Source: a virus. Taken from it: DNA of 40,549 nucleotides. The notes below the pieces were generated by a model. It saw only the letters and a list, made by a program, of their open reading frames with translations, was not told the origin of the DNA and searched no databases. The position numbers and the translations under genes are program-made. Each line of letters begins with the position of its first letter. Position 1 is the stretch's first letter. The DNA lies in the IMG/VR virus record IMGVR_UViG_3300021511_000001, positions 1-40,549 of that record, one strand, 5' to 3'. Below are positions 288 to 24,713 of this stretch, in pieces.

Positions 288-764
288 GTGAAAAAAGCGG
301 AAATTTTCATAAAAATTACAATTATAGTTTTTATAATTTTAATTTTAGGGCTCTTAGGGCTATGGTCTTTTACATTACGGTCTTATCTCCGAACAGATAA
401 ATTAGAAGATGAAGTATTTGAGAAGCAGACAGTAGAGAGTATAGATTCGCTATGGTGTCCTCCGTCTACCGGAGACTGGTATATGCAATTACGATTTGAC
501 GAGGCGGACTTAACTATTAAAATCCGTCTTGATACTCTTTGGCAAATAGCGGAAAGCGTGTGGATCGAGAGGAGAGTGGACGAAGTATCTGAAAAGCAGA
601 CAAATGGTTTCTGGGTATACTGGACTCCCCACATCGAAGCTTCGGGGGATACTTTTGTGGTAACTATGGCGGATAGCCTGTGGATGACAGGTGACACTCT
701 CAAGACAATGGGAACTCTTCGGCATGGCTGGAGAAGGTGGGGACTGTGGTTTTATGTGCGATGA
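288..764 (+). CDS. Membrane-anchored hypothetical protein
   Basis: The protein has 158 residues. Residues about 6-28 form a strongly hydrophobic segment (IFIKITIIVFIILILGLLG), followed by a soluble Trp-rich domain, suggesting a signal anchor with the rest outside the cytoplasm. The start is GTG 288, chosen because AGGAGG-type bases lie just upstream (278-286). The domain contains two related stretches, DEVFEKQT and DEVSEKQT, with similar DNA, suggesting an internal duplication. It is the last gene before the late promoter and terminator region. I do not recognise the family. A role in the cell envelope, such as superinfection exclusion, would be a guess. Confidence 0.7.
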   Translation: MKKAEIFIKITIIVFIILILGLLGLWSFTLRSYLRTDKLEDEVFEKQTVESIDSLWCPPSTGDWYMQLRFDEADLTIKIRLDTLWQIAESVWIERRVDEVSEKQTNGFWVYWTPHIEASGDTFVVTMADSLWMTGDTLKTMGTLRHGWRRWGLWFYVR

Positions 765-8481: not shown

Positions 8482-9774
8482 ATGGCATACATGACTGGGA
8501 CTACTGTTGCGAGTGAAATTCGGGAGTTTTCCAAAGAGAAGGTGCTGACAAACTTCCACAATCAGATGGTGGGAAGCCAGTTTGCCCAAGTGGGGGAGAA
8601 AATTCCCCAGGGCGAAGGCGATACGGTGGAATGGACAAGAAAGATCAAGCTGGCGAAAGCCACCTCTGCTGTTGGTGTAGGATCGGATATTACGCCCAAA
8701 GCGTTCTATACCACCAAAATCTCTGCCAGTGCACAAAAATGGGCTGATGGTATTGCTTCGGAAAGAGAGATATTTCTGATTGCTCAGCATTTTAGAAGCT
8801 GGAAGGACTTGGCGGGAGACGTAGGGACGCAGATGGCGGAAACGCTGGATTATCAGATGATGAAGCTTCTGGCAACCAGGGGTTATCGAATGAGAGCGGA
8901 TGCAGATACTAATTATGAATTTAATGATACGGTGGCGGTTGACGGTGACGCAACTGGTTTGTATTTCGGTCTTACTACCTATGGGGGGGCAGACGATGCT
9001 ATCAATGGTGGATATTGCACCATTACAGGATTGGATACCGCCTTTCTTTCCCGAAAGGCTTATTGTGAAACCCGAAAAATAAGCGATTGGGACTTGACGG
9101 GAGGAACAGTAGAAAAGATGGTCTCTTTTACCGGTGACCTTTGGCCGTGTCAAATCAAAGCAGGTTGCACTGTTCATATCACCGTCGGCACTGACATAAC
9201 GGCAGCCGATGTGATTACCACTTCTGTTTTTGCACTGGGTATCAGGCAACTCCAGAGACACAAGGGTGTGCGATTCACCGATGCCCTGATAACGAAAGGC
9301 ATGGGATTACCCCATCAGGAGACACAGAACTTACCGCCTGGGGCTGGTAGCGGTGCATATTGGGTCTGCATCGTCGACCAAGACCACATCTACGACTTTA
9401 TGAAGGATAGCAACTGGGCGGCAAGGGCTAACTATCATAAGGACGAATGGGTGAACGCTGAAATAGACAAGTGGATGGGTGCAAAACTATTCGGCACGAC
9501 CCAACCCTGGCGGGAAACGGTAGCAGGGGTGGAAGCTGAAGGTTCGGGCGTAGTTCATCCAATCCACTTTCTTGCAACTAATGCCTATGCTATTTCACCG
9601 ATTGCCGACCCCAAGGCGGAGGGTGATTTTGGCACAATTATCACCATCAAAGAGCCAACGGACTTTTCGGACTTCATTCAATACAGATCGTCTATGTCTT
9701 GGCAGACTTATGGGGCATGGAGAAGCTTGAATTCTCTGTGGAACATAGTCATGCTTGGCGGAGCGACTCTGTAA
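8482..9774 (+). CDS. Major capsid protein, N4 gp56-like
   Basis: The product has 430 residues, starts after AAAGGAG and shows a capsid-type pattern: an N-terminal helix (ASEIREFSKEKVLTNFHNQM), then a GEGDTVEWTRKIKLAKAT segment that resembles the GxGxTV...R.Y..L.. region of the N4 gp56 family, followed by an acidic stretch and DYQMMKLLATRG. It contains a beta-rich insert around residues 140-240. It is placed between scaffold and connector genes. Codon use is more GC-balanced than in neighbouring small genes, consistent with high expression. Confidence 0.85.
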   Translation: MAYMTGTTVASEIREFSKEKVLTNFHNQMVGSQFAQVGEKIPQGEGDTVEWTRKIKLAKATSAVGVGSDITPKAFYTTKISASAQKWADGIASEREIFLIAQHFRSWKDLAGDVGTQMAETLDYQMMKLLATRGYRMRADADTNYEFNDTVAVDGDATGLYFGLTTYGGADDAINGGYCTITGLDTAFLSRKAYCETRKISDWDLTGGTVEKMVSFTGDLWPCQIKAGCTVHITVGTDITAADVITTSVFALGIRQLQRHKGVRFTDALITKGMGLPHQETQNLPPGAGSGAYWVCIVDQDHIYDFMKDSNWAARANYHKDEWVNAEIDKWMGAKLFGTTQPWRETVAGVEAEGSGVVHPIHFLATNAYAISPIADPKAEGDFGTIITIKEPTDFSDFIQYRSSMSWQTYGAWRSLNSLWNIVMLGGATL

Positions 9775-9790
9775 ACTGAAACCTCAAACC

Positions 9791-9817
9791 TGGGGGTGGG
9801 TGAAAAACCCACCCCCA
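9791..9817 (+). promoter_or_regulatory. Perfect GC-rich hairpin downstream of the capsid gene
   Basis: TGGGGGTGGGT (9791-9801) pairs perfectly with ACCCACCCCCA (9807-9817) around a GAAAA loop. No T run follows, so it is not a standard intrinsic terminator. It could protect the 3' end of the capsid mRNA, pause polymerase or lower expression of the following genes. Confidence 0.6.
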
Positions 9818-9826
9818 ATAGTAAAC

Positions 9827-10174
9827 ATGCCAAATTATCCGTTTCGATGCCCAAAATGTAACGCCGAATTTGAATTGTATACCTCAGTCAGTGAATACAA
9901 TCACCTGAAGGATAAGATTCGATGTCCGGATTGTGGAATTGTTATGACTCGTGTTTATATGCCTATCAACGTGATATGTCGTTGGGGGACGGGATTTGTC
10001 GGTGGTGAGCGTGTCGGCTATATCCCTGGAGTGGACAATCCACCAACGGAGATCAAAGCAGACATGAAAGCACTTGAGGAAAAAAAGATGCACGAGGATA
10101 ATCCAGCGAAAAGAAAGGATTTAGCCGTTGCGCTTAATCGTTTTGCTGAAGCCCATAAGGATATTTTGATATGA
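9827..10174 (+). CDS. FmdB-family-like zinc ribbon protein
   Basis: The product has 115 residues from ATG 9827. The N-terminus, MPNYPFRCPKCNAEFELY followed by IRCPDCG, forms a two-CxxC zinc ribbon like the FmdB regulatory-protein family. The C-terminus is helical. An earlier in-frame start would lie inside the preceding hairpin. Homologous zinc ribbons are common between capsid and connector genes of phages. The actual role is unknown. Confidence 0.75.
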   Translation: MPNYPFRCPKCNAEFELYTSVSEYNHLKDKIRCPDCGIVMTRVYMPINVICRWGTGFVGGERVGYIPGVDNPPTEIKADMKALEEKKMHEDNPAKRKDLAVALNRFAEAHKDILI

Positions 10175-10851
10175 GCATGAATTTAGATCAAATGGTAGAG
10201 TCAATCTGCATCAGCTTGAATGATTTTTTACAAAAGACCAAAGAGAGGGTTAAGAATTTGATTCCTGAGTCGGTAATTTTTGTGGTTAATATGCACCAAT
10301 GGGAATGCACTCTTAGAACTATCGACCTTATCACCTCTGCAAGTCACGATTGGGTTGATTTGCCAGGTGATTTTGGAAAGGAATATGCTTTAAGGAGAAG
10401 CAATTATACAAAGCCAATAGAGTATATCACGCCAGACGAATACAACAGAAAGCTGGCTTCGGGTTCTACGCCCTGTGGAGCGGAAGCAATCGAATATACT
10501 ATTATGGGGGGGGAATCTTTAAAGCAGAAACGGATACACTTTCTTGATCCGCCGACTTCAGCCCTGACTATTCGGATGACTTACAATGTAAAGGTTAGTC
10601 CTCTTGCGGTTCAAGATTTACCGGATGAGTTTTTACCAGTAGTGAAAGCTCATGTGATTTATCAGATAACACCGCCAATGATCCAAGTAAATGGGATTAA
10701 GCAATCCAATCCTTCATTCTTGGCGGCAAGAAGCGATTACAGAGCAAATTTAAGTCGCCTTATATCCTACGATGAAGGGCGAAGGGGTAGAAATATTCCA
10801 CAGGTATTAGACGATATAGCAAGAAGGACTTCTCAATATATGCACAGATAA
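10171..10851 (+). CDS. Head-tail adaptor protein (no signal peptide)
   Basis: The product has 226 residues, overlapping the previous gene by 4 bases. Its arrangement resembles connector adaptors: an N-terminal helical part (DQMVESICISLNDFLQKTKERVKNLIPES), a beta-rich middle (DWVDLPGDF..., IHFLDPPTSALTIRMTY) and a helical C-terminus that includes LPDEFLPVVKAHVIYQI. The pattern 'structure value, predicted Y of a load, then a helix with a Y' is shared with the next three proteins. It lacks an N-terminal signal sequence, unlike those proteins. Confidence 0.6.
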   Translation: MSMNLDQMVESICISLNDFLQKTKERVKNLIPESVIFVVNMHQWECTLRTIDLITSASHDWVDLPGDFGKEYALRRSNYTKPIEYITPDEYNRKLASGSTPCGAEAIEYTIMGGESLKQKRIHFLDPPTSALTIRMTYNVKVSPLAVQDLPDEFLPVVKAHVIYQITPPMIQVNGIKQSNPSFLAARSDYRANLSRLISYDEGRRGRNIPQVLDDIARRTSQYMHR

Positions 10852-10858
10852 GGAGCAG

Positions 10859-11539
10859 ATGAAAAAGTTTTTGATTTCGATATTTATTCTAATGTCAATA
10901 GGGTTTCGGTTCTGTTATGCGAACGATCTTTTAACTTTAGCGGACTTCCGCAGAGCATCACAAAATCAGTCTGTTTTAAAGACTAATCCTTTTTACCCCG
11001 ACTCAGTGTGGGACAGTTGGATCAACGAAGCTTGCTCTGATTTGAGCAGTTATGGAATAATCGAGAAGCTCGATACTCTTATTTGGATTCCTGGCACCAT
11101 GGTTTATAGTTTGAATAATGATTTTATTGTTTTAACGGCTTTATTTTCATTGCAACCAGAGGGAAAATTGCCTATTGATTTGATCCCAGCTAAAGACGTA
11201 GGCAAAAGTTTGGAACCAAATACACAGAAATGTTGGCAGGCGGGCAAAGGGGGAAATGCAATCGTGGGATTTTTTCCTTTGCCGACGATCAAGGATACCT
11301 TTTTGGTAATTTACGGAGCGGAGGCGAATTACTTGATCTCGGATAACGATACCACCGAGATCCCTTATTCCTATCGACCTCTAATTATCGACTATGTAGT
11401 TTATCGAGCACTTCTCAGAGATGGGAAAAAGGCTTCCTCTAATCGCTATTATGATAGCTACATGAAAAGATTAGAGGTAAAGCTTAAATTCGACTTAAAA
11501 AGATTCGATGTTATTGTTGCACCGAAAGAGATAAAATAG
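10859..11539 (+). CDS. Adaptor-like connector protein with an N-terminal signal peptide
   Basis: The product has 226 residues. Residues 1-21 form a classic Sec signal peptide (KK, hydrophobic core, then CYA before ND). After it, LLTLADFRRAS, the PFYPDSVWDSWINEACSDL helix, DFIVLTALFSL, FFPLPTIKDTFLVIYGAEA and the helix ...YRPLIIDYVVYRALLRDG follow the adaptor pattern. AAGGAGC precedes the start. A cytoplasmically assembled connector should not need a Sec signal, so this is odd. It is the first of three related genes in a row. Confidence 0.65.
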   Translation: MKKFLISIFILMSIGFRFCYANDLLTLADFRRASQNQSVLKTNPFYPDSVWDSWINEACSDLSSYGIIEKLDTLIWIPGTMVYSLNNDFIVLTALFSLQPEGKLPIDLIPAKDVGKSLEPNTQKCWQAGKGGNAIVGFFPLPTIKDTFLVIYGAEANYLISDNDTTEIPYSYRPLIIDYVVYRALLRDGKKASSNRYYDSYMKRLEVKLKFDLKRFDVIVAPKEIK

Positions 11540-11551
11540 GAGGAAATTGAG

Positions 11552-12280
11552 ATGAAGAAAAAAATTGTAGTTCTTGGCTTTGTGGTTCTCTGTCTGGGGT
11601 TATTCTTGGTCAATCAGACACAGGCTATAACCTACGATGATTTAAAAAAGCAACTCAAATACAGATTGGCGGAAAGCTCACCGGATTTTTCGGATGATGA
11701 CTTGGGGGTGTGTATCATCATGGGAAGAATAGCGATTTTGGCTCATGGGTTGGCGAGCGGTCGAAATTACGTTTATTATCCATCAGGTGAGCTTACGCCA
11801 GTTGATTCGGGTCAGCAATTTATTAAACTTCACAATGTTCAAGGTCCAGGGGGTTCATTAGATGTAATGTTTGTAGATGCAGTTATCAAAGTGAGCGGTG
11901 GTGAAAATAGAAGTCTATTGCAAACAACAATAAAGGATGTTGGTCATAAATCTTTAAATACAGATGTGCCACTTTCTTTTTATTATTTTTTCCGCAGTGG
12001 GGATTCCACGAATATCTATATTTTCCCTGCTTCAACTCAACCAGAAACTCTTAGAATTTTAGTATACAGATGTGGTTTTTCTGAAGTAGACATTACGGAA
12101 AATCCAGTTTTTGAAGAATCTTGGCTGGATTATGCTCTTTTTATAGCATATCTCAGGATCGAAAATTATCAGGCGGCGGCGCAGGCTTACAATTCTTATG
12201 CTCAAGGGATTGCTATTTTGCGAGAAGAGATAATAAATACACAACCAGACATAACAGTGATACCTAAAATTATCAAATAG
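11552..12280 (+). CDS. Second adaptor-like protein with a signal peptide
   Basis: The product has 242 residues after AGGAGG. Residues 1-25 form a signal peptide with NQTQA just before the predicted cut. The body repeats the adaptor pattern: YDDLKKQLKYRL, a beta-rich middle (FIKLHNVQG..., NIYIFPASTQPETLRILVYR), then FEESWLDYALFIAYLRIENYQAAAQAYNSY. The final helix resembles the C-terminus of the neighbours. It is probably a paralogue of the genes at 10859 and 12290. Confidence 0.6.
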   Translation: MKKKIVVLGFVVLCLGLFLVNQTQAITYDDLKKQLKYRLAESSPDFSDDDLGVCIIMGRIAILAHGLASGRNYVYYPSGELTPVDSGQQFIKLHNVQGPGGSLDVMFVDAVIKVSGGENRSLLQTTIKDVGHKSLNTDVPLSFYYFFRSGDSTNIYIFPASTQPETLRILVYRCGFSEVDITENPVFEESWLDYALFIAYLRIENYQAAAQAYNSYAQGIAILREEIINTQPDITVIPKIIK

Positions 12281-12289
12281 GAGGTTGGC

Positions 12290-13012
12290 ATGAAAAAGAT
12301 ACTTGTAGTAACATTCGTCTTGGTGACCCATTTATTTTTGGCAAATTCTATATTTGCAGTTGGAGGGGGGGACTTGGATGTTCGCCTTAAATTATTGCTC
12401 AATGATGAGACAAATCCGTTTTATCCTGATAGCATACGAATAGATTTTATTAACATGTCACTAAAAAAGTGTGGACAGTTATCCTATATGGCGGCGGATT
12501 TTGCGGTTAAGTGTTCTGTAATGACGGCTTTTCCTGATTGGATTTTGCCAGCGACTCTACTTGATGGCACTGGGTTTTCCAGTAATACGCCTATAACAAA
12601 AATACAATACGTTTTGCTTGCAAATGATGATTATGGATTGATGCAAATACATCCGAAAGATATTGCTCAGAAAAAAATTGCCACTACTGAACCAGCGAGA
12701 TATTGGTATGAGCAATCCAGAACTGGGGCAAATGGATTTTTTCTGAGAGTTTATCCTAAAGTGGATACCAAGACAATTGTATGGGTATTCGGTTCTGTTG
12801 CTCCATTGTGGGCAGATACTGCTTTTTTAAATCCAGCTTTTGAAAACGAAGTGGTGCTCTACGCTCTATATCTCTGCAAGCAAAGACAGGGAGAGCACGA
12901 AGTAGCCAACTTTATCAGACAGATCGCCATCAACGAGATTATGGATTTGAAGGCTATTTTAGAGAACCGCCCAGTTGATGTAACCGTAGCTAAAGAGGTT
13001 GTGCCCAGATGA
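12290..13012 (+). CDS. Third adaptor-like protein with a signal peptide
   Basis: The product has 240 residues, with AGGAGG upstream. A signal peptide covers residues 1-23 (cut after SIFA). The motif NPFYPDSIRIDFINMSLKKCG closely parallels NPFYPDSVWDSWINEACSDL in the gene at 10859, showing common ancestry. A middle beta section (FFLRVYPKVDTKTIVWVFGS) and a C-terminal helix (FENEVVLYALYLCKQRQGEHEVANF) follow. It overlaps the next start by 4 bases. Confidence 0.65.
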   Translation: MKKILVVTFVLVTHLFLANSIFAVGGGDLDVRLKLLLNDETNPFYPDSIRIDFINMSLKKCGQLSYMAADFAVKCSVMTAFPDWILPATLLDGTGFSSNTPITKIQYVLLANDDYGLMQIHPKDIAQKKIATTEPARYWYEQSRTGANGFFLRVYPKVDTKTIVWVFGSVAPLWADTAFLNPAFENEVVLYALYLCKQRQGEHEVANFIRQIAINEIMDLKAILENRPVDVTVAKEVVPR

Positions 13013-15444
13013 GGCTATTTAGGTTTTTTCTTTCCATCTTTATTCTTATTGGGTTTGTGGTTACTCTTTCCGCACAAGAGATTGACGACGAAGAGCAAGA
13101 GGTCAAGCCTGAAGATTTAAAAACAATAGAAGAGAAAGTAGTTTTACCTATTCAGCCACCCAAGCCTAAACCTACTCCGATAGAGATTCAGCCCATAGAA
13201 CCAAAGGCGGAGTCTTTTCAGAGATTTGCTCCATCTTCTCCGGTGACTCCGCCTGAGAGAAGAGAACCTACGCCTCCGAGTCAATTTTGGTTTAAACAGC
13301 CGACACCTGTAACTGCTCCTGACTATCACAATCCACACAATCCCAATGGCACATCGTCTATGCCTTTCAAACAGCCCGATTTTTTAGCTAACATCCCTTC
13401 TTCTAATCCAGGATCATATCAACCCGAATATGGAAGGATGCCATTCCAAGAGCCACACTCTATACAGGGGGCTTCTTCTGTTTATTCGACTGCACGTTTG
13501 GATGATTTCTCTGGTGGCTTAAATTTAGTCGATTTTCCTAATAAGATTGCAGATAATGAGGCAGTTAATTTAACAAACTTTATCTGGACTTCGGCGGGCA
13601 AATTAAAGCCACGTCCAGGTTTTAGAAAATACAATATCTCTGAATTTGATGCAGGTAAAAGAATCTGGGGACTTTACCCTTATACCACTCCAGACGGTGA
13701 GGATTTTCTTTTGGCTGGGGTAAATGGGACCTTATGGGCGGATACGACCGATTACAACACTGGAAGTTTTGTTTCGGTCAAAACGGGACTTCAGAGCAAC
13801 AGTAAATACTACGATTTTGAGACCTTCAAGGGCAAAGCCATAGTGGCGCATGAGGGGGATTATCCGTTTATTTTGGGTAAAGATGTAAACGAAACTATTC
13901 CCACGTTTGGTTTCGCAGATAGTATTATATGGGCGGGAAGACACGGTAATGCTTGCACCACTTTTATTGAAGCTGAAAATGTAAATTGGCAACCAGGGCA
14001 ATGGGCAGGGTTTGTGCTTTCACGTTCGCTATCTCCGCATGACACTAATACATTAATAATCGCAGATAATAGTTCAGATGAATTGACGATACTCTATCCT
14101 ACTAATGATGCTATTTTGACCTGGGGACTCTATCGATACATTTTTGGATTTTTTGACTACGATAGCGTTACGTCTGGCGTTATAGATTCTGCTCGAATAG
14201 CACCATCAGGTTGCACACACGATATATATTCTGGCAATTGGTCGGAAAGTTGGGAGGAGGGAAGTTACTTTATAAGGATGACCTCTGGCACTGCCCAAGG
14301 GAACCAAAGAAAAATAAAATATGTAGATGATGCAAATGGAGAACCCAATATAAAACTCATACCTCAACATGCGTTTAATGACACCTTGAAAGCGGGAGAC
14401 TCTTACGTTATTTTAAAGGCGGTTTTTTGGAAACCCTGTCTTTGCGAAGTTTATAAAAATAGAGTCTTCTTTGTTACTGAAAATCAATATCCCGCCACTG
14501 GACAGGATTTTGTTGTTTTCTCTGAGAATAATAAACTGACCCATTTTGATCAGGATAATTCTTTTACCGTCAAAACTGAAGATGGCGATAAAATCACCGC
14601 CTTAGCCACTTTCTACGACGATCAGCTTGGCTACAAGGATCGCTCCAGGGACTGTCTGGTGATCTTCAAGCAAAATTCCATCTGGAAACTGGTCTGGGAG
14701 TCCGCCACGAATTACTATCTGGTTCAGGTCTCGGATAACGTGGGGTGTATTGCCCCGCAGTCAGTCGTGAATGTTGAGGGAAAGTATCTGCTCTTTTTAC
14801 ATACTACTGGCGTTTACGCTTTTGATGGGCGGATGGTGACTTTGATATCTGGAAAAATTCAGCCACTTATTGATGATATGAATCAACATATAAATATGGC
14901 GGCAGGTGGTTATTACAAAGATCATTATTATTTGAGTTATACCAATTACGGGAATGGTTATAATCGGGCAACCATCGTGTTTAATGTCAAAACGGGGGCT
15001 TGGGCTATGGCGACTAAACCCTGGACGGGTCTTTTTGCTCAACAAACTGCACTTTCGGATAGTTGTAAACTTCTCTTTGCTCATTATTATGATAATAGTT
15101 TTATCTACGAATTTGCTATGGCAACCACAGATACAGGAGAGGCAATTCCCTTAACCTATAAATCCAAAGCTTTTGATTTCAACTCCATAGCGGATAGGAA
15201 AAGGTTCACTTATTTCGATCTGGACTATAATTTGACCAGTGGGAATTTCACCACTTATTTCTATACGGATTTTGGAGATAGTCTCAAATATAACAAAACA
15301 GTTTCAGAGAGTGGGGGGTATAGATACAGCCGTATTCCTTTGGATTCTGATTGTCTGGGAAGGAATTTTAGTTTTAAGATCACATCGTCAAACAAATTAG
15401 AATTGGATAAAGTGGGGATAAAATTTAAAAAGATAAAGGAGTGA
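13009..15444 (+). CDS. Large tail protein with signal peptide and Pro-rich linker
   Basis: The product has 811 residues. Residues 1-22 form a signal peptide (LSA before QE), followed by an acidic stretch and a Pro-rich linker (about residues 45-130, repeated PxP and PFKQP/PFQEP). The body begins DDFSGGLNLVDFPNKIADNEA, the opening of a family of phage tail/hub proteins with beta-propeller-like strands. Many AFDG-type turns follow (VYAFDGRMVTLISG). It is likely the tail-tube or nozzle protein of a short tail. Its start overlaps the adaptor stop. Confidence 0.65.
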   Translation: MRLFRFFLSIFILIGFVVTLSAQEIDDEEQEVKPEDLKTIEEKVVLPIQPPKPKPTPIEIQPIEPKAESFQRFAPSSPVTPPERREPTPPSQFWFKQPTPVTAPDYHNPHNPNGTSSMPFKQPDFLANIPSSNPGSYQPEYGRMPFQEPHSIQGASSVYSTARLDDFSGGLNLVDFPNKIADNEAVNLTNFIWTSAGKLKPRPGFRKYNISEFDAGKRIWGLYPYTTPDGEDFLLAGVNGTLWADTTDYNTGSFVSVKTGLQSNSKYYDFETFKGKAIVAHEGDYPFILGKDVNETIPTFGFADSIIWAGRHGNACTTFIEAENVNWQPGQWAGFVLSRSLSPHDTNTLIIADNSSDELTILYPTNDAILTWGLYRYIFGFFDYDSVTSGVIDSARIAPSGCTHDIYSGNWSESWEEGSYFIRMTSGTAQGNQRKIKYVDDANGEPNIKLIPQHAFNDTLKAGDSYVILKAVFWKPCLCEVYKNRVFFVTENQYPATGQDFVVFSENNKLTHFDQDNSFTVKTEDGDKITALATFYDDQLGYKDRSRDCLVIFKQNSIWKLVWESATNYYLVQVSDNVGCIAPQSVVNVEGKYLLFLHTTGVYAFDGRMVTLISGKIQPLIDDMNQHINMAAGGYYKDHYYLSYTNYGNGYNRATIVFNVKTGAWAMATKPWTGLFAQQTALSDSCKLLFAHYYDNSFIYEFAMATTDTGEAIPLTYKSKAFDFNSIADRKRFTYFDLDYNLTSGNFTTYFYTDFGDSLKYNKTVSESGGYRYSRIPLDSDCLGRNFSFKITSSNKLELDKVGIKFKKIKE

Positions 15445-15450
15445 TGAATT

Positions 15451-15972
15451 ATGCCAGCTTGGTTAGCTCCAGCTTTAATTAGTGCAGGAAGTTCACTTTT
15501 GGGTGGTTTATTTGGCGGGAAGAAGCAAAAAACCACCTATGAGATGTCTCCAGAAGCACGAAGTCTTTACGCATATTTAATGGGACAAGTCAAAGGGGGC
15601 GTTACGCCTTCTTATTTGACACGACCAATTCAACAAAGATATGGGGCTTTAAGGGCAGGAATCAAAGAGAGAATGGGTGAAAGTTTGGGGGTTGGATCGG
15701 GGCTGGAAACGGCACAGTTAATGAGAGCAACAGCAGCACAAGGTAGAGAGATAGGTGAGGCGGGCGAAAGGTATCGAAGGGGATTACTTGGCACATTAGC
15801 CAGTCTGGTTGGTGGAAGGGGAACCCAAACGACAACGGGGGGTGCTCCCTGGGGAGATATTTTTGGTGGAATAGGCGAAGATATTGGTTTTCTCTGGGGA
15901 TTACAACAGATGATGGGTAACGGACAGAAGAACGGGAAATATGCATCAGCTAAGGGGTATCCCATACCATAG
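15451..15972 (+). CDS. Internal virion / ejection protein, Gly-rich
   Basis: The product has 173 residues. The N-terminus (PALISAGSSLLGGLFGGKKQK) is the Gly/Ala/Leu-rich hydrophobic stretch typical of podovirus ejection proteins that insert into the membrane, followed by a helical Arg-rich middle and a Gly-rich end. AAAGGAG lies upstream. It is the first of three ejection-type genes, an order shared with P22-like phages (gp7, gp20, gp16). Confidence 0.65.
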   Translation: MPAWLAPALISAGSSLLGGLFGGKKQKTTYEMSPEARSLYAYLMGQVKGGVTPSYLTRPIQQRYGALRAGIKERMGESLGVGSGLETAQLMRATAAQGREIGEAGERYRRGLLGTLASLVGGRGTQTTTGGAPWGDIFGGIGEDIGFLWGLQQMMGNGQKNGKYASAKGYPIP

Positions 15973-15984
15973 GAGGATAAAATT

Positions 15985-16881
15985 ATGCCATCTTTAGCAC
16001 AGGGATATGGAAAAGGTCTACTCTTAGGTTTACAGCTCGAAGAGGCGAAGAGACAGAGGCAGAGGGATGAGCTTTCGGATGCGTTTCTGCGTGAGCGACT
16101 TGAAGATATGCGTTTTCAGAGAAAGGCTTTATTATCTCAGTTGAAGCGTGAAGAGGAAGAAAGAAGAGAAGCGGGTCTTGAGAAAGTAGCTAAGGGGCAC
16201 AGAATGGCAAAAGCTGGTGTAGGACTTCGGGATTTGTTGTTGAAAGCGGGTGTTACTATGCCCCAGGCTGAACTTGCTGAAACAGAATATTATGAGACTG
16301 AAAAGATTCCAAGTTATGCGAGTGAATGGTTAACACCGCCAAAGGCAGAAAAACCTTCAGCATCAGCAGAGAGAGAAGCGAGAGAGTGGGAACAGTTTCA
16401 TGAGTTGAAAAGGCTCGGTGTGCCCATTGGTCCACCGACACCTACTCCGATTGTTAGAAAAGAATATCTTGAGCGGAAATTTATACCGAAAGAAAAAGAA
16501 TCCGCAGTGCAAAAGTGGCTTACTGCTTGGGAAAAACATATTTTTGCATTAAAGGATGAATTTGGAGAACCTAAATTTGAAGATTTAAGTGAAAAGGAAA
16601 AACGGGCATACTTTGATAAGTGGGCAAAGCGTATTCCAGCAGATTTAAGGTTGGAGGTTAGAAAACGGGCAAATATGGATAGTCCTATACACCCTATTAC
16701 ACCAGCAGAAGCAAAACCAATCAATTATAAAGGTATGGCAAAGGGTTTACGAGAACTTGAGAAGATTGAAACTCAAGAAACGCTTGAAGCATATAAGGAT
16801 CAACTTTTAGAGCATTATCCTGAGTTAGACTGGGAACAGTTAAAGAGGTATTTTAAAAAAGGAAGTGAACTTCTGGAATAA
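15985..16881 (+). CDS. Internal virion protein, coiled coil
   Basis: The product has 298 residues, starting after AGGAGG. Residues about 10-65 are a long charged helix (LEEAKRQRQRDELSDAF and following), predicted coiled coil. The remainder is Pro/Glu/Lys-rich and helical. It lies between the Gly-rich ejection protein and the giant ejection protein. No catalytic motif is seen. Confidence 0.6.
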   Translation: MPSLAQGYGKGLLLGLQLEEAKRQRQRDELSDAFLRERLEDMRFQRKALLSQLKREEEERREAGLEKVAKGHRMAKAGVGLRDLLLKAGVTMPQAELAETEYYETEKIPSYASEWLTPPKAEKPSASAEREAREWEQFHELKRLGVPIGPPTPTPIVRKEYLERKFIPKEKESAVQKWLTAWEKHIFALKDEFGEPKFEDLSEKEKRAYFDKWAKRIPADLRLEVRKRANMDSPIHPITPAEAKPINYKGMAKGLRELEKIETQETLEAYKDQLLEHYPELDWEQLKRYFKKGSELLE

Positions 16882-16883
16882 TT

Positions 16884-19800
16884 ATGCCCATAGATTTTGA
16901 GAGATTAGATAGAGCCGTCTACGGTCGAGCTAAACCTCAGAAACTTGACTTTGAGAAACTGGACAAGGTGGTTTATGGTGAGGAAGAAGAGTATCCCGAT
17001 TTAAGAACAAGGATACGCAGGCGGTTAGGTGTCCCCGAATGGTTTGATATTCAAGAATTAGGTTATAACATCGTTAAAGACATCCCTCCGATGGTAACTG
17101 GATTGCCTATGTTTCAGCAAGCCCCGGAGGCGGGTATACAATTAGCTAAACAGACAGCAGAAAAAGTGGCTCAAGAAGCCATAAGGGAAGTTGAAAAAGA
17201 ATCTCTGATTGGACCCAAACCAAAAGAACCTTGGTATAAGGGCAAGACAATGGAGAGATTGGGGGAGATTCCATTTTTAGGTGTTCTGCCTCGAACCATA
17301 ACTGCACCAAAAGAGACTTGGTATGAACACCCGCTTCCCTCGGGATTGGAAGCCCTTGCTTTGGTTGCTCCATTGGTGGCTGGATTAAGGGGGGTAAGGG
17401 CTAAACCCAAACCTCATATTGAGCCTGAAATTAGAGTTCCTGGCATCACGGAAAAAGTCGTCCCTGAACCCACCGCCATCCCCGAGGGTGTGATTGAGCG
17501 TATTTTGGGGATTGAGAAGAGACCCTTAAAAGAAGAACCTTCTATCGGTAAGTTACAGAGGCAACAAGCCGAGCTTCTTGAGAAAGCCAAAGAGGTAAAG
17601 GCTAAGCCCAGCACATTGGAAGAGCCCATGACGGAGAAGCCAGCGAAGGCAGAAGTCGAACCCACTCCCACCATTCCTCCCGAACATAGACCTGTTCCAC
17701 TAACAAGAGAAGAAGCTCGATATTTGAGTGGTGAACTTCCTAAAAGTGTAATAGCCAAAAGGGGTAAATTTAAAGCTGGAGATACGCCCAATCCAATAGC
17801 AGAAGCATTATTGATTTCTCGTGGAATTAGAAAAGCACCCGAATTGGCGAAAACGATAAGTGAGAAAAAAGCTAAAATGCGGGAGGATTTTACATTTGCG
17901 ACTGAAGCTGAAGGAAAGGTAACAGCTCCGACTTATACAGAAAGAGATTTATTGACTGGTAAGGTTATGAGAAAAGGCAAAATTACACCTAAAGGAATTA
18001 AATATGAAGTTTCTCCCGAACTTGAGGGACTGGCGGAGGGAAGATATACCTCTGCCGTTAAATTGAAAGGTGGAAAGAAGTTTTATCCAAGTTATTCTGA
18101 ACATGGTTTATTTATGGCAAGAATAGGGGGTAAAGATGTAGTTCTGGACAAGAGGCGAGTAGCTGAAATACATGATATAACAAAACATCCCGAACTCAAA
18201 TCCTTCTGGCGTGCCGCACAGGAGGGGGGGGCTAAAGAGACAATTAGACCCGAAGAGACCTTCAAGGCTGGAATTCCTTTCTTTAAGACAAAGCAAGAGC
18301 GGTTTGCTCAAGCACTCAAAATAGCCAAACTTAAGAAGGGAATAGAAACAGAGAAAGGCTCCCCCATGATTACGATGGAGTTGAAACCAAAAGACGCACA
18401 GACTCTCTTTCAAAGACCTTCTCATAAATATGGAGCCGTGCCCAACGAATTAGGTGAGTTGGAGGCTAACTACGGAGAAGCGGCGGCTAAAGCTCAACAA
18501 GTGCTTATGTTTACAGAGCGAGACATTCGTAGGGACCAGGGCATAGGTCGGGCAGAGCTTGCAGATATACTTAGAAAAACCTCCAGAAAGAATCGGAAGA
18601 AATATCAATCGGATATAGTTGAGGGATTAGAAAACCCTATTGAGCTAACCGAAACAAAGAACATTCCGGGGGACGTTAAGCAGGTTATTCGGGAATTGAA
18701 AGCTAAGTCGAACCGAGAGCGACAAGAGATAATCAGGATAAAGCGAAAAGAGATTCAGCCATATTTTAAGAGGTTAGCTGAAAAGCAGTATAGGGCAGAG
18801 CGTGGATTAAAGGGTAAACGACTCAATGAGGCACAGAGAGGTGAGATAAACGCTCAAGCCGAAGAATTAGTAAAAGTCGAAATTCCTGATGAGTGGGGGA
18901 TTAAAGACTATTATCGTCATCTGCATCTTGGAGAATATGTTTTGCTTAGAAAGGTGGAGGGTAAGTCGGAGTATATAGGTTCTGCCCAGAATTGGACAGA
19001 GGCGGTAAATAAGGTTGTTGAGAACTACGCTGAAAATCCAGAAGCGGGGATGAACTATGAGGTAAATTTGCGTAAGTTTGTTGATCCCGACGTCGTGCGG
19101 GTGTCAAGGCGGAGGCAGTATAAGATTCTCAACGATCTTCGCAATGAGCTTAATGCGGAATCAACCGAGAGGATTCAGACTATTCTCAGAGGAAAGATCG
19201 GAGCAAGAGAAGCTCAGCGCAAATGGGCTGGGTTTATGCAGAGACGAAAAGGTCTGCCTGGATATTCTAAAGATTTTGAATTTGTTTTGAATTATCACAA
19301 TAATCAGTTTCAGCGGTGGAAGCATTTATATCGTTTAAAAGGAGAAATTCAACCTCTGATTAACCAAATTAGAAAAGAGGGGAGAACGCTTGTAGCTGAC
19401 GAGATCGAAACTAACCTAAAGACTCTCTGGGGACAGAAGACAAAGGGTTCTCGGATGCTTGATAATTGGCTGGAAAAAGCTGGTAGGGGTCGGGTTAGAC
19501 CGTTTGCTCTTGAAAGGTGGACAGGGCGACTAAGGAATCTTACTACCACCTTGATGTTAAAAACCAGTATACGCTACAATCTTTTAAATAGTATGCAAAT
19601 TATGCAGACAGGCATGGTTGTGCCTTATAAAAATTTAGTTTGGGCACAGAAGGCGGTTAGAAGTCCTGTGGGGAAGGCTCTGTTGGATCAGCACGGAGTT
19701 TATCACATCATCAAAGGGACTGCTGGGGAAATAACAAGAATGTATACTCCCGTAAAAGTCCGGGCTTCAATGGTGTCGCGGACATTGAGGTTGTCTCCCG

Positions 19801-20909
19801 AAACTGCCAATCAAGCGGAGATGTGGCTGGCGGTATATAAGCATGGGAAAGATGCCTTGAAAATGACCGATGCTCAAGCGGCAGATTACGCCTTTCTGCG
19901 AGGTATGGTCTACTCTCAATTCTTACCCTTAAAGGTCAATTATCCCAGAGCACTCAGGTCTCCAGTTGTCAGAGTGGGTCCAGGGATGTATCGAACCTTT
20001 ACTATTGGTGCTTTAGAATTAGCTTCTGATTTAGCAAGAGGTGTAATTAAGAAAGGCTTACCGTTAAAACAGCGTGTGTCAAACGTTGGGCGATTGTCTC
20101 ATTTTGTCGGAGCAAACATGGCTTTAGGCGGAATACGAGTCGTAACAGGTCCTTTTGCTAAAATCTTTGGTGGTGGATATTTGACGCTCAAAATATACAA
20201 TCAGATTAAAGATGAATATGGGGAAAAGGTCGCAAATTTGATCCATTGGGGGTTGCCTTCTTTAATAAATAGCGATTGGTCGTTATCGGTGCAGTTAATT
20301 GATTTGCCGTTTGCTGAAAATGTGCCGGAGGCGATTGGAGAGGTTGCTTTGGGTCCAATGGGTGGGACTGCACTCAGAATTGGCACTCAGACATTGAGTA
20401 ACTACGGGGAGGAAGATAGCCGCTTAATGAGGGGGTTAAGAGCGGGTATGCAGAAATTCGGTGGAACACGTCAACTCTTGGGTTTGGAAAAAGTTCTAAC
20501 GGGTGATTACGATTTTAAATCTCCTAATGGGAAATTGCGATTTAAGGGAGATTTGAAAGATGCTCTCGTTCAGATGTATGGATCAAGACCATTGAAATCA
20601 TCAATCCAAAGTATGAATTTCGATGCTTTAGCTGAGGTTTGGGGTGAAAGAAATGATGCCATAAATTCGGCTGTCCGATTGATGAATACAATATTAGAAA
20701 AACAAAAAGCTTTGTCTGTTTCTGATAAAAAGAAAATTATGGAAAGGACAAATGAATTTAACGCAAAATGGCCGGAGCTGGCAATCTGCTATGGAGACAT
20801 TAAGAGGCGAGCAAGTGGACAAGATAAACTCAAAGAGTTGGATGCATTTCAAAGAGCGTTAAAACAGAGAGGCAAAACGTATTACAGGCTTTTTGGGAAA
20901 ACTCCATGA
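16884..20909 (+). CDS. Giant internal virion / DNA ejection protein
   Basis: The product has 1341 residues, the largest gene. It begins with a duplicated short motif (FERLDRAVYGR and FEKLDKVVYGE). A Pro/Glu-rich spacer follows to about residue 270. The middle part (about 300-550) is a mixed domain. From about 550 onward it is helical with many Arg/Lys, and residues about 880-1130 contain several moderately hydrophobic helices (LTTTLMLKTSIRYNLLNSMQ, GANMALGGIRVVTGPFAKIF). Large proteins of this type are delivered into the host with the DNA. No lysozyme or transglycosylase motif was seen. Confidence 0.65.
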   Translation: MPIDFERLDRAVYGRAKPQKLDFEKLDKVVYGEEEEYPDLRTRIRRRLGVPEWFDIQELGYNIVKDIPPMVTGLPMFQQAPEAGIQLAKQTAEKVAQEAIREVEKESLIGPKPKEPWYKGKTMERLGEIPFLGVLPRTITAPKETWYEHPLPSGLEALALVAPLVAGLRGVRAKPKPHIEPEIRVPGITEKVVPEPTAIPEGVIERILGIEKRPLKEEPSIGKLQRQQAELLEKAKEVKAKPSTLEEPMTEKPAKAEVEPTPTIPPEHRPVPLTREEARYLSGELPKSVIAKRGKFKAGDTPNPIAEALLISRGIRKAPELAKTISEKKAKMREDFTFATEAEGKVTAPTYTERDLLTGKVMRKGKITPKGIKYEVSPELEGLAEGRYTSAVKLKGGKKFYPSYSEHGLFMARIGGKDVVLDKRRVAEIHDITKHPELKSFWRAAQEGGAKETIRPEETFKAGIPFFKTKQERFAQALKIAKLKKGIETEKGSPMITMELKPKDAQTLFQRPSHKYGAVPNELGELEANYGEAAAKAQQVLMFTERDIRRDQGIGRAELADILRKTSRKNRKKYQSDIVEGLENPIELTETKNIPGDVKQVIRELKAKSNRERQEIIRIKRKEIQPYFKRLAEKQYRAERGLKGKRLNEAQRGEINAQAEELVKVEIPDEWGIKDYYRHLHLGEYVLLRKVEGKSEYIGSAQNWTEAVNKVVENYAENPEAGMNYEVNLRKFVDPDVVRVSRRRQYKILNDLRNELNAESTERIQTILRGKIGAREAQRKWAGFMQRRKGLPGYSKDFEFVLNYHNNQFQRWKHLYRLKGEIQPLINQIRKEGRTLVADEIETNLKTLWGQKTKGSRMLDNWLEKAGRGRVRPFALERWTGRLRNLTTTLMLKTSIRYNLLNSMQIMQTGMVVPYKNLVWAQKAVRSPVGKALLDQHGVYHIIKGTAGEITRMYTPVKVRASMVSRTLRLSPETANQAEMWLAVYKHGKDALKMTDAQAADYAFLRGMVYSQFLPLKVNYPRALRSPVVRVGPGMYRTFTIGALELASDLARGVIKKGLPLKQRVSNVGRLSHFVGANMALGGIRVVTGPFAKIFGGGYLTLKIYNQIKDEYGEKVANLIHWGLPSLINSDWSLSVQLIDLPFAENVPEAIGEVALGPMGGTALRIGTQTLSNYGEEDSRLMRGLRAGMQKFGGTRQLLGLEKVLTGDYDFKSPNGKLRFKGDLKDALVQMYGSRPLKSSIQSMNFDALAEVWGERNDAINSAVRLMNTILEKQKALSVSDKKKIMERTNEFNAKWPELAICYGDIKRRASGQDKLKELDAFQRALKQRGKTYYRLFGKTP

Positions 20910-21473: not shown

Positions 21474-21974
21474 ATGGAGAAAAAAATAGTAATTAGTGCT
21501 TTGCTCGTTTTGTTTTTGGGAGTGATGGTGCAGGCGAAAGATCACACTAAATTCATTCGTGGTCATGGTGGGGTAATCGCTACTGGCGAGCAGATCGAAA
21601 AAGGAAAGGTTTATGGGACTTTCAGGATTGATGGACTATTTAAGACCTACAAACATCTATATGCCGTAGTCGGCTTTCAGGATATTTTAACAGGTGAGAC
21701 AATCAAAGGCGAGAACTACGATGCAGGCTTGTGCTTTTATACCCGTAACCCTAACAGCCCAAAGCCCCAGTTGTATCTCATGGCTGGAAATGGCGGAACT
21801 CACATTAACGGAGGCGACAAGTTCGTAGAGTATACTTACGGTGGAGGGATTGGAATCTTGATACCTTGGTCGGCATTGGACGTAACCTTGATGGGACAAC
21901 TTAAAGTGATGCAGATAAAGAACGATAGAATATTTCATATTAGCTTTGGTGTTCAATCGGGAATTGATTTGTAA
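21474..21974 (+). CDS. Secreted beta-rich protein, possible outer-membrane barrel
   Basis: The product has 166 residues, with GGGAGGTG upstream. Residues 1-21 are a Sec signal peptide (cut after MVQA). The mature part has alternating strands with aromatic edges (KVYGTFRIDGLF, LYAVVGFQDI, LYLMAGNG, FVEYTYGGGIGILI, LDVTLMGQLKVM, FHISFGVQSGIDL), ending in a hydrophobic pattern like that of small outer-membrane barrels. Within a lysis cassette it could alter the outer membrane or modify the cell surface; this is inference. Confidence 0.6.
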   Translation: MEKKIVISALLVLFLGVMVQAKDHTKFIRGHGGVIATGEQIEKGKVYGTFRIDGLFKTYKHLYAVVGFQDILTGETIKGENYDAGLCFYTRNPNSPKPQLYLMAGNGGTHINGGDKFVEYTYGGGIGILIPWSALDVTLMGQLKVMQIKNDRIFHISFGVQSGIDL

Positions 21975-22285
21975 TGAATTTTATCTGGCTTGTGTTTGCT
22001 CATTATATTGGGGATATAGCCTTACAATCAGACTGGCAGGCTAAAAACAAAGCTAAACTGTGGTATGTTATGTTGTCCCACTGTATGATATGGACTGCTA
22101 TAGTTTGTGTTGCCTTACAGTATTTGGGGGTTTTCTGTTTGTGGAAGGTTTTCTTTTTGCTCGTGGGTCATTGGGTTTGCGATAAATGGAAAGCAAATAA
22201 ACCCCAGACACCAGAGGCGTGGCATTTTATTTACTACGACCAAGCGTGGCATATAATACAGTTAATCGTAGTTTATCTGCTGTGA
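21974..22285 (+). CDS. DUF3307-like membrane protein
   Basis: The product has 103 residues with three likely membrane segments. The start FIWLVFAHYIGDIALQSDWQAKNK matches the (H)xLGDxxLQxxxxAxxK pattern of the DUF3307 membrane family, and LSH follows at the next helix. ATG overlaps the preceding stop (TAATG). The role is unknown; in this location it may be holin-related. Confidence 0.6.
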   Translation: MNFIWLVFAHYIGDIALQSDWQAKNKAKLWYVMLSHCMIWTAIVCVALQYLGVFCLWKVFFLLVGHWVCDKWKANKPQTPEAWHFIYYDQAWHIIQLIVVYLL

Positions 22286-22581
22286 TGGAAACGATGCCGA
22301 TTTTCAAACCAAAAAAAGGATCGCTTCTCAGGTGGAGCAGGATAGTGCACTTTTTGATCGCTACGACGATAACTGGCTACGGCGGTTATCTGGGAGGCTA
22401 TCAGGGTTCGATTTGGACGGGATTGGCTGTCATTGCAGGTGGATTCTTATGGGAGCTATCAAATAAGGTTCTTCCTAAATTCACTGGATCGACATCGCAT
22501 CCCTTTGCCGATGCGGTGGATTTTTGGGCGTTTGTTTCAGGGGCGGTCGTGGCAGGAGTGGGATGGATCGTGTTTAGTTAA
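22285..22581 (+). CDS. Small membrane protein, holin candidate
   Basis: The product has 98 residues from ATG 22285, which overlaps the previous stop (TGATG). Hydrophobic segments are ARIVHFLIATTITGYGGYLGG-like at residues 19-38, then IWTGLAVIAGGFLW and FWAFVSGAVVAGVGWIVF. The charged N-terminus and two or three membrane helices fit a holin, but small phage membrane proteins are hard to assign. A longer in-frame start at 22219 lies inside the previous gene. Confidence 0.55.
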   Translation: METMPIFKPKKGSLLRWSRIVHFLIATTITGYGGYLGGYQGSIWTGLAVIAGGFLWELSNKVLPKFTGSTSHPFADAVDFWAFVSGAVVAGVGWIVFS

Positions 22582-22602
22582 TTTTAATGGAGGGGTTAAA
22601 AA

Positions 22603-22812
22603 ATGAGTGACAAAAAACTTACGGTAAATCCACAGACCGGACAGAAGCACACGGCTAAGTGGCCTGTGATTCTTAGTTTTCTTGCCGGTGTAATAATTCT
22701 TGCAATTCCCCTTATATCTCCAAGCTTCACTTTTGGTGAAGCTATCCCTATTACTCTTAGTCTCTGGACAATTGGTGGAATAGGGACTGGGGCAATGGCA
22801 CGGAGGGCATGA
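22603..22812 (+). CDS. Two-helix membrane protein, holin candidate
   Basis: The product has 69 residues: a polar N-terminus, then two membrane helices (VILSFLAGVIILAIPLI and ITLSLWTIGGIGTGAMA) and a basic tail (ARRA). A good GGAGGGG precedes it. This is the class II holin layout. It sits just before the endolysin. Which of the neighbouring membrane proteins is the real holin cannot be decided from sequence alone. Confidence 0.55.
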   Translation: MSDKKLTVNPQTGQKHTAKWPVILSFLAGVIILAIPLISPSFTFGEAIPITLSLWTIGGIGTGAMARRA

Positions 22813-23012
22813 TGGCACTAATTAAATTAACTATCAACACGGATAAAGTTATGGCAGACCTGCGTCGTTGGTTGTCTGATCCAACAGAGAGAGATAGGAT
22901 AGCCAAGAAGATAGACGAATGGACAGATACGGGAGTTTTCGATAAAATTGACGAGGCATTCATTAAGAAGTTCTTGAAAGACATTTTGGCAGAGGATAAG
23001 ATAAAAGAATGA
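22809..23012 (+). CDS. Hypothetical helical protein before endolysin
   Basis: The product has 67 residues and is helical and amphipathic (VMADLRRWLSDPTERDRI). Start codons ATG 22809 and 22812 are both possible after CGGAGGG. It overlaps both neighbours by 4 bases, so the cassette is translationally coupled. The function is unknown. Confidence 0.6.
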   Translation: MMALIKLTINTDKVMADLRRWLSDPTERDRIAKKIDEWTDTGVFDKIDEAFIKKFLKDILAEDKIKE

Positions 23013-23440
23013 GATTCAAGCGGTTGTTGTTAAAGGCTCAATTCAACTCTCCCGAAGTTCATGCTTACTTGCGGGGTTGTGCTTTGGACTTACATCGGTT
23101 TTCTCTCCATAGATTTGAGAAGCCCATGATAGTGACTTCGGTATTGAGAGAACCTGCCAAACAGGTTGCGTTATGCAAAAAGGGTAAGTTCAAATCTTAT
23201 TTTCAGCATTGTGTGGGTGAGGCTTTGGATTTAAGAACTTGGCACTTAAAGCCGGATGAGATAGACGAACTGTTGGAATATTGCCGAATTAACTGGTCGA
23301 CTCTTTGTTATCTGAAGCATCATGCTCTGGGCACCGCTCCACATATGCACTTAGCTTTACGGAGTGAGCTTTCAAACAAGAATAAGATATGGGAAATGGT
23401 AAAAAATACAGAAGATGGACAGGACTATTTTGTGGGGTGA
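23009..23440 (+). CDS. Endolysin, M15-type peptidase
   Basis: The product has 143 residues. The motifs QHCVGEALDLR (about residues 68-78) and H..GTAPHMHLAL (about 108-118) match the zinc-binding pattern of D-Ala-D-Ala carboxypeptidase / L-Ala-D-Glu endopeptidase (M15) endolysins: His and Asp in the first, His-x-His in the second. It has no signal peptide, so it needs a holin for release. It overlaps the previous gene by 4 bases. Confidence 0.75.
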   Translation: MRFKRLLLKAQFNSPEVHAYLRGCALDLHRFSLHRFEKPMIVTSVLREPAKQVALCKKGKFKSYFQHCVGEALDLRTWHLKPDEIDELLEYCRINWSTLCYLKHHALGTAPHMHLALRSELSNKNKIWEMVKNTEDGQDYFVG

Positions 23441-23443
23441 TTT

Positions 23444-23593
23444 GTGGGCTTACGCCGATCCGTTTATGTCTTGATTTTATTTGTTGTTGTAGGTCTACTC
23501 TCCAGCTATCTGGCGCTTAAAACACCGAAAGACGTAGACTGTCCAGAGCGTTCGACTATGTTGGTTGATCCTTGTTATGAAAACGTTTTATAA
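23444..23593 (+). CDS. Tiny membrane protein, spanin-like candidate
   Basis: GTG 23444 begins a 49-residue frame with one membrane helix (VLILFVVVGLLSSYLAL) followed by a polar tail with two Cys (DVDCPERSTMLVDPCYENVL). It follows the endolysin by a few bases and overlaps the next gene. A spanin-like role is possible by position and layout, but no lipobox is seen and I do not recognise the family. Confidence 0.45.
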   Translation: MGLRRSVYVLILFVVVGLLSSYLALKTPKDVDCPERSTMLVDPCYENVL

Positions 23594-24713
23594 ATCAGTT
23601 CTTTTGTTAATATTTGGGATTCTCTTCTGTCCAAACTGGGCACAAGCGGACGTTGACACCTTGCGACCAGCGGGGAATGTTTATACTTATGCTGGTTCAT
23701 GGGTGGCAAATACGGGTGATAGGCATGATGCCATTGATGAGATTACTATAGATAATGATACTACTTATATTGGTGAAGAACTCACGGGTAAGAAATATAT
23801 CTGGTATCCTGAAGATTTTACGTCGGGGAATATCATCGACACAGTGATACTCTATGGTTATGCTCGAATGAAACAGAACGGCACGGCAGATTTTGCTTTC
23901 GGGCGAGCATATAGTTCTGAGCAAGCTTTTATTTGGTGCACATCGGGAATAAGGGATACCACGACCTTGACTACAAGCTACGCTAAAGACTCAATTGTGT
24001 GGACTCAAGACCCGTGCACTGGATCGGCTTGGAGTTCGACTTATTTGAATAGCAATAGCTATGGTTTTGGCTATGAGAGTATCACTCAGATCTCGACTGA
24101 TTCGACAACTGAGCCGGATAGTTTTGGTTTAAATTCGGGTAATTCTGTTTGGAATTATAGCACGGGCTGGGTTGATGTGCAAAGATTTGAGAGCACGAGT
24201 GCGGGGACGTTGACTACGCTTAGGATATATTCTACGGATGTAGATTTAGGCTCCAATGTAAAGATGGCGATTTATTCTGACACGGTTATCTCATCTATTG
24301 GTTGGCCCAAAAGAAAATTGTGGGGCGATGAAACTGGAGTAGCTATTACTAATGGATGGACTTCTGTGACAACCGATAAGATACTTATAGAAGCAAATAC
24401 ATATTATTGGCTTGCCTCCAAGATAAGTGCAAGTTGTAGTTTGTCATACCAGTCTGGAGGGCCGACGTATTCCCATAGAACCAGAAATGACCAACCTTAT
24501 GCAAACGCATGGCCTGACTGGACGTGCTTTACAGCTGGAGCGTCCTGTTGGGATTACAACAATGGAAATCAGATTGTGGAAAAAGCTATTATAGATAAAG
24601 TTATTTTGGCTCCACAGGAGCAAAGGATCACCCAGGCTTTTATTGTGGTCAAGAGTCACGCGGAGGCGGCAGAGGGCAATCCTCGTCGGAGAAGAATTAT
24701 AACAGGAGATTGA
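23577..24713 (+). CDS. Secreted Thr/Ser-rich surface protein, fibre-associated
   Basis: From ATG 23577 the product has 378 residues with a Sec signal (cut after NWAQA, residue 24). The mature protein is rich in Thr, Ser, Asp, Tyr and Trp and made of beta strands, suggesting jelly-roll domains, possibly carbohydrate-binding. The C-terminus is basic (RRRRIITGD). No ribosome binding site is obvious, so coupling to the overlapping 23444 gene is likely. It lies just before the long fibre-like gene, so a structural or surface-binding role is inferred. Confidence 0.55.
   Translation: MKTFYKSVLLLIFGILFCPNWAQADVDTLRPAGNVYTYAGSWVANTGDRHDAIDEITIDNDTTYIGEELTGKKYIWYPEDFTSGNIIDTVILYGYARMKQNGTADFAFGRAYSSEQAFIWCTSGIRDTTTLTTSYAKDSIVWTQDPCTGSAWSSTYLNSNSYGFGYESITQISTDSTTEPDSFGLNSGNSVWNYSTGWVDVQRFESTSAGTLTTLRIYSTDVDLGSNVKMAIYSDTVISSIGWPKRKLWGDETGVAITNGWTSVTTDKILIEANTYYWLASKISASCSLSYQSGGPTYSHRTRNDQPYANAWPDWTCFTAGASCWDYNNGNQIVEKAIIDKVILAPQEQRITQAFIVVKSHAEAAEGNPRRRRIITGD

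Follow-up and report, generated by a model that had tools for sequence, protein, structure and literature searches.

Four consecutive tail genes of a temperate short-tailed phage encode proteins that begin with predicted Sec signal peptides. Its sequence is IMG/VR virus record IMGVR_UViG_3300021511_000001 (40,549 bases); the whole of this stretch was analysed and is called the window below. The genes, which start at 10859, 11552, 12290 and 13009, encode three adaptor (tail-ring) proteins, Ad2, Ad3 and Ad4, and the tail nozzle. A second viral contig, L021 (IMGVR_UViG_3300024433_000074), carries homologues of all four in unchanged order, each with a signal. As judged from sequence, the signals are real, additional to the proteins that bear them, selected, and carried with an exchangeable tail cassette. 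We propose that these distal tail parts would be exported by Sec, that barrel and nozzle would form in the periplasm and that heads would join them at the holin opening. The probability of this reading is put at about 0.47. The genes and signals are:

10171-10851, + strand: adaptor 1 (Ad1), head-proximal ring protein without signal; PF24175 (SU10_adaptor), E = 1.2e-5, 26.3 bits, aligned from residue 3
10859-11539, + strand: adaptor 2 (Ad2) with Sec signal; PF24175, E = 8.8e-10, 39.8 bits, aligned from residue 26; phrog_399
10859-10921, + strand: Ad2 signal peptide MKKFLISIFILMSIGFRFCYA, predicted cut after residue 21, before ND
11552-12280, + strand: adaptor 3 (Ad3) with Sec signal; PF24175, E = 3e-6, 28.3 bits, aligned from residue 27
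11552-11626, + strand: Ad3 signal peptide MKKKIVVLGFVVLCLGLFLVNQTQA, predicted cut after residue 25, before IT
12290-13012, + strand: adaptor 4 (Ad4) with Sec signal; hhalign and Foldseek
12290-12358, + strand: Ad4 signal peptide MKKILVVTFVLVTHLFLANSIFA, predicted cut after residue 23, before VG
13009-15444, + strand: tail nozzle, with the signal peptide first, then a disordered linker rich in Pro that ends near residue 156, then the core (157-811); Foldseek, profile and phrog_511
13009-13074, + strand: nozzle signal peptide MRLFRFFLSIFILIGFVVTLSA, predicted cut before QE
13075-13476, + strand: Pro-rich nozzle linker, absent from homologues without signal and longer in L021

The products of 10859, 11552 and 12290 are genuine podovirus adaptors. 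The curated cut-off of PF24175 (27 bits) is passed by Ad2, Ad3 and the Ad2 of L021 (53.6 bits); Ad1 (26.3 bits) and the Ad3 of L021 (23.4 bits) are slightly below it. Ad4 has no PF24175 match in either phage. Using hhalign, it was aligned with Ad2 (90.6%, E = 1.3e-6) and Ad3 (93.8%, E = 1.8e-7). Its structural model, which has a pLDDT of only 50, matched adaptors in Foldseek with E values from 4e-6 to 9e-5 (Pa223, 4e-6; SU10 adaptor, 6.1e-6; also KHP30, A4 and DEV). These adaptor rings rank first, and each of the nine matches with E<=0.001 is to a structure from a phage neck or tail. The same model also matches crAss001 ring proteins and, weakly, the T7 adaptor fold.

The product of 13009 is the tail nozzle. 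Its model matches the nozzles of Pa223 (2.4e-22) and SU10 (5.8e-20) as well as A4, P22 gp10 and T7 gp12, and the family profile matches cyanophage A4 tail tubular protein B, whose structure is solved (PDB 9k09_U, 8e-14). For the prediction, the alignment was built only from retrieved loci; residues 157-811 are mostly well modelled except for an insert at about 294-408. A preliminary description of this DNA had taken the four products for head-tail adaptors and a tail protein from sequence and position. Pfam, profile and fold searches agree and specify the tail protein as the nozzle; structure prediction, proposed there as a check, confirmed these identities and did not refute them.

Signals were scored with a rule of our own, which demands a positive n-region, an uncharged h-region of 10-16 residues and small residues at -3 and -1. 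All four open reading frames lie at the coordinates and have the N-termini given earlier, and their signals comprise 21-25 aa with Ala at -1. Together with the L021 homologues, eight of eight peptides from two phages satisfy the Sec type I pattern. The starts are preceded by Shine-Dalgarno sequences (AAGGAG ahead of 10859, AGGAGG ahead of 11552 and 12290), and that of 13009 is translationally coupled to the preceding gene by an ATGA overlap. The textbook signals described before thus stand. In 60-odd phage loci, with the L021 contig left out, the rule yielded a background of about 1% (5 positives among about 520 genes of at least 120 aa). The terminase, portal, capsid and ejection proteins of the window are negative by this test, as is Ad1, for which the lack of a signal had been correctly stated. 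Amino-acid composition did not separate proteins with signals from those without. The L021 terminase reading frame opens with a hydrophobic stretch, which is probably an overlap artefact and was not counted.

The signals are placed in front of complete proteins. In the tagged adaptors that align from the start of the profile, the SU10_adaptor domain begins at residues 26-28, directly after the predicted cut, vs. residues 1-6 in those without signal; the signal has therefore been added to a domain that is complete without it. Nozzles without signal begin near residue 155-165 of the window nozzle, which leaves about 155 extra residues here, the signal plus the linker. The linker contains a block of 21 residues, LPIQPPKPKPTPIEIQPIEPK, that is identical in the window phage and L021. 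It is followed by Pro-rich repeat-like units (P..I.AP.Y....P...FQ.P), of which L021 has more (its linker lies from 10067 onward). Possibly, the linker serves as a length-variable spacer with a fixed binding site.

The comparison with L021 argues for selection on the signals. The homologues are 63% (Ad2), 59% (Ad3), 58% (Ad4) and 56% (nozzle, over 1-811) identical; the signals share 38-48% of their residues, the mature parts 62-68%. Nevertheless, the diverged signals still have the charge pattern, the hydrophobic core and Ala at -1 in common in all eight peptides. When neutral drift was simulated to the observed divergence, the pattern was kept in 6-25% of the runs per gene, which amounts to about 3e-4 for all four. 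Conservation of the N-terminal segments in this one close relative, a further check proposed in the preliminary description, likewise did not refute the signals.

L021 also defines the unit in which the signals are carried. In tblastn with all window proteins against its contig, matches were confined to five consecutive genes, namely the four tagged ones and 15451; for Ad1, the major capsid protein (MCP) and the other head genes no counterpart was detectable. In L021/L067, the tail cassette is combined with another head module, whose terminase, portal and capsid differ from those of the window (weak SU10_MCP match), and in L021 an adaptor-like gene without signal precedes the four tagged genes. 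Since only the tagged genes and 15451 are common to both, a module boundary is placed between Ad1 and Ad2, and Ad1, which like the head genes is not shared, belongs to the head module. By gene content, this is head-tail module exchange, with the tagged genes as a distal tail cassette that appears on unrelated heads. No second close relative was found in further scans. Viral-contig scans with the single proteins P0002, P0005, P0006 and P0012 and a genome scan with P0012 yielded no relatives, and tblastn of Ad2, Ad3 and the late beta-helix protein (see below) against phages gave no match.

Signals of this kind are known to direct export via Sec and to be removed by signal peptidase. From the protein identities, the signals, their conservation, their placement before complete domains and the Ad1/Ad2 module boundary, all computed here, we infer export and cleavage as well as the site and time of assembly. 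Ad2 to Ad4, as stacked rings, and the nozzle would be made as Sec precursors. Host signal peptidase would cut the signals, and the mature proteins would be complete, ordinary tail parts that collect in the periplasm and form the barrel and nozzle there. Heads would be filled with DNA in the cytoplasm, where Ad1, which is untagged, would cap them. Opening of the inner membrane by the holin would allow the capped heads to reach the exported barrel, where Ad1 would bind the next ring, so that the virion would be finished shortly before or during lysis. The endolysin (23009, M15-like) has no signal by our rule, which agrees with an end gated by the holin. In both phages, every tagged ring has conserved Cys residues (Ad2 C59; Ad3 C54 and C174; Ad4 C61 and C196). 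With these, disulfide bonds like those in the crAss001 barrel (PMC10172136) would be possible, which is only suggestive.

We expect the tagged products to belong to the virion. The 40.5-kb window carries a direct terminal repeat of 124 bases and so most probably represents a complete genome. No further nozzle gene was found in it; therefore, the tagged nozzle should be the nozzle of the virion. The same absence and the position of the genes in one tight late operon lead to this conclusion for the tagged products in general.

Several points weigh against periplasmic tail building. The general view is that phage tails assemble in the cytoplasm, and a periplasmic route is, to our knowledge, not known for tailed phages. 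Exporting parts that must join a cytoplasmic head looks costly, and export and cleavage of the tagged proteins are deduced steps. The tagged module is known from two genomes only, the drift test assumes free substitution, and Ad2 has an Arg between hydrophobic core and cut site. Furthermore, the other podoviruses examined lack such signals on their tail proteins. Besides L021, the nozzle alignment search retrieved 29 distant nozzles and another 3 from genomes; by our rule, none of 42 other nozzles is signal-positive, and among about 107 genes upstream of them the single positive is holin-like. SU10_adaptor matches occur in 8 of 292 genomes of one phylum, and the adaptors read there have no signals. 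The same holds for the tail genes in the loci, where listed, of 13 distant terminases found by alignment.

Known systems resemble the window phage in parts. P22 (gp4/gp10) and T7 (gp11/gp12) have the same nozzle fold, and T7 is weakly similar in its adaptor fold as well; their tails have a single adaptor, lack signal peptides and assemble in the cytoplasm. In the filamentous phage M13, the virion proteins pIII and pVIII are synthesised as precursors of the Sec type and undergo maturation at the envelope. However, filamentous phages belong to another virus realm, are extruded through the membrane without lysis and have neither a head nor packaged double-stranded DNA. The Kuravirus SU10 is similar in its adaptor gp11 of PF24175, the fold of its nozzle gp17 (platform, beta-propeller) and the order portal-adaptor-nozzle (PMC9509320). 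It differs in having one type of adaptor ring and no reported signal peptides, whereas the window phage has four adaptor genes, three of them tagged, and its nozzle bears both a tag and a Pro-rich linker. A multi-ring barrel, described as a defining feature of crassviruses, is found in crAss001, where several paralogous rings are stacked between portal and nozzle-like muzzle (PMC10172136), comparable to the four adaptor genes at 10171-13012. In contrast to the window proteins, the ring and muzzle proteins of phi-crAss001 start without signals, and its genome has 102.7 kb vs. 40.5 kb. Membership in the Crassvirales was rejected: no window gene matches the CrAss_Ring Pfam families, in which the crAss001 rings score 200-400 bits, and a 40.5-kb genome with terminal repeats stands against genomes near 100 kb. 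In the open literature, phage signal peptides are discussed for endolysins or merely listed per genome (rumen Bacteroides phages), and not for adaptors or nozzles; an earlier notice in subscription journals is possible.

Other explanations of the signals have to be weighed. Uncut or late-cut signal anchors might hold rings and nozzle at the inner membrane for assembly on the cytoplasmic side, or stay in the virion and insert into the membrane of the next host during DNA entry. Proheads of other phages do assemble at the membrane, the nozzle model has a hydrophobic N-terminal helix, and the long Pro-rich linker behind the nozzle signal could span the periplasm. An anchor, however, needs neither Ala at -1 in eight of eight peptides nor the permitted residues at -3, and the hydrophobic cores are short. 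N-in anchors would put the mature domains outside, away from the head, and three rings of 12 subunits plus a hexamer, as in known barrels, would carry about 40 hydrophobic helices per tail. Membrane tethering and a use in DNA entry, both considered in the preliminary description, have consequently lost ground and are unlikely: Ala at -1 and domain starts after the cut fit cleavage and release better.

It is quite unlikely that the peptides are Sec-like but act in the cytoplasm, as inefficient or masked signals or as assembly-control peptides removed at maturation, with tails built in the normal way. Signals can be inefficient, and the tagless tail proteins of all related podoviruses examined would agree with this idea. 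However, the sequences diverge fast and yet keep their signal-peptide properties, beyond which the four proteins have little in common there, and the n-h-c structure and the Ala-type cuts are typical.

A further idea, which we consider very unlikely, is that the exported copies of adaptors and nozzle stay out of the virion and instead work in the envelope of lysogens or infected cells, e.g. against superinfection, as the products of 21474 and 28288 might. It would suit a temperate phage (integrase, repressor-like gene) that encodes other envelope proteins. However, the genes lie between capsid and ejection genes in the above-mentioned operon, where they overlap or are 6-12 bases apart and promoter-like or terminator-like sites are not clearly in excess. 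Moreover, no other nozzle gene was found in this genome, which has terminal repeats, so the phage would be left without a virion nozzle. Finally, an annotation artefact with true starts downstream and untranslated segments is largely refuted and almost certainly wrong: a TTG with a G-rich stretch after the Ad4 cut would speak for it but is not conserved, the upstream ATGs have strong ribosome sites, all four segments are kept as signals in L021, and neither nozzle has an in-frame start codon in residues 18-60.

The remaining genes of the window are consistent in order with a temperate short-tailed phage: terminase, portal and major capsid protein (phrog_38, phrog_1216 and phrog_1357, respectively) are followed by 10171, 10859, 11552, 12290, 13009, ejection-like genes, the lysis region and late exported proteins. 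The window also encodes an integrase, a repressor-like gene and a DNA methyltransferase, which matches phages from many phyla and gives no host assignment. The neighbouring features are:

9755-10174, + strand: zinc-ribbon protein of the FmdB type (phrog_385, 3e-6), encoded between the capsid gene and the adaptors; its start, a TTG, overlaps the capsid gene
15451-15972, + strand: probable small ejection protein without signal, to judge from position and sequence style; L021 homologue 51%
15985-16881 and 16884-20909, + strand: two ejection-like genes without signal, so called from position; not detectably common to L021
21474-21974, + strand: small exported protein, rule-positive, no family match
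21974-23440, + strand: lysis region with DUF3307 membrane protein (21974), holin-like gene (22219) and M15-like endolysin (23009); family match phrog_894, 1.3e-3
21974-22285, + strand: the DUF3307 membrane protein (PF11750, 4.2e-10), overlapping the holin-like gene
23577-24713, + strand: late protein with signal peptide, possibly a tail appendage; rule-positive, no family match
24715-28278, + strand: late beta-helix protein (PF13229, 9.7e-7), ambiguous between type I signal and lipobox (LIGC)
28288-28851, + strand: Pal/OmpA-like lipoprotein, lipobox FAGC (PF00691, 1.5e-20), last late gene ahead of the integrase

The membrane protein at 22219 would act as holin. As stated in the preliminary description, signals return in the late genes 21474, 23577, 24715 and 28288; the pattern does not extend to the whole virion. 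Apart from these and the four structural genes, the only rule-positive product at a listed start among about 50 window genes is that of gene 288, a plain membrane protein. By family, only 24715 looks like an appendage, which its beta-helix product likely is. By eye only, the alternating hydrophobic pattern of the 21474 product looks like a small outer-membrane beta-barrel. A role of the 28288 lipoprotein in lysis or envelope change is possible; Cellulophaga phage phi14:2 likewise encodes an OmpA-domain protein. Membrane-anchored proteins with Asp/Thr-rich outside parts and no family match are found close to the head genes in both phages (window 288-764, + strand; L021 3101-3733, + strand). A protein with short tandem repeats (ELWAKGSELRAKGDELYAKGDELRARE) is encoded at 39478-39945 (+ strand).

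Under export of the distal tail, the adaptors and the nozzle in the virion are predicted to begin at the predicted cut sites. A wider scheme, held tentatively and at somewhat less than even odds, is a two-compartment morphogenesis in which head and Ad1 would be cytoplasmic, barrel, nozzle and probably fibres periplasmic, and the tail cassette could be swapped between unrelated heads. If this is true, some tailed phages would build half of the virion beyond the inner membrane. This would have consequences for the timing of lysis, for folding in an oxidising compartment, for head-tail recombination and for the dependence of phages on the Sec system of their hosts.

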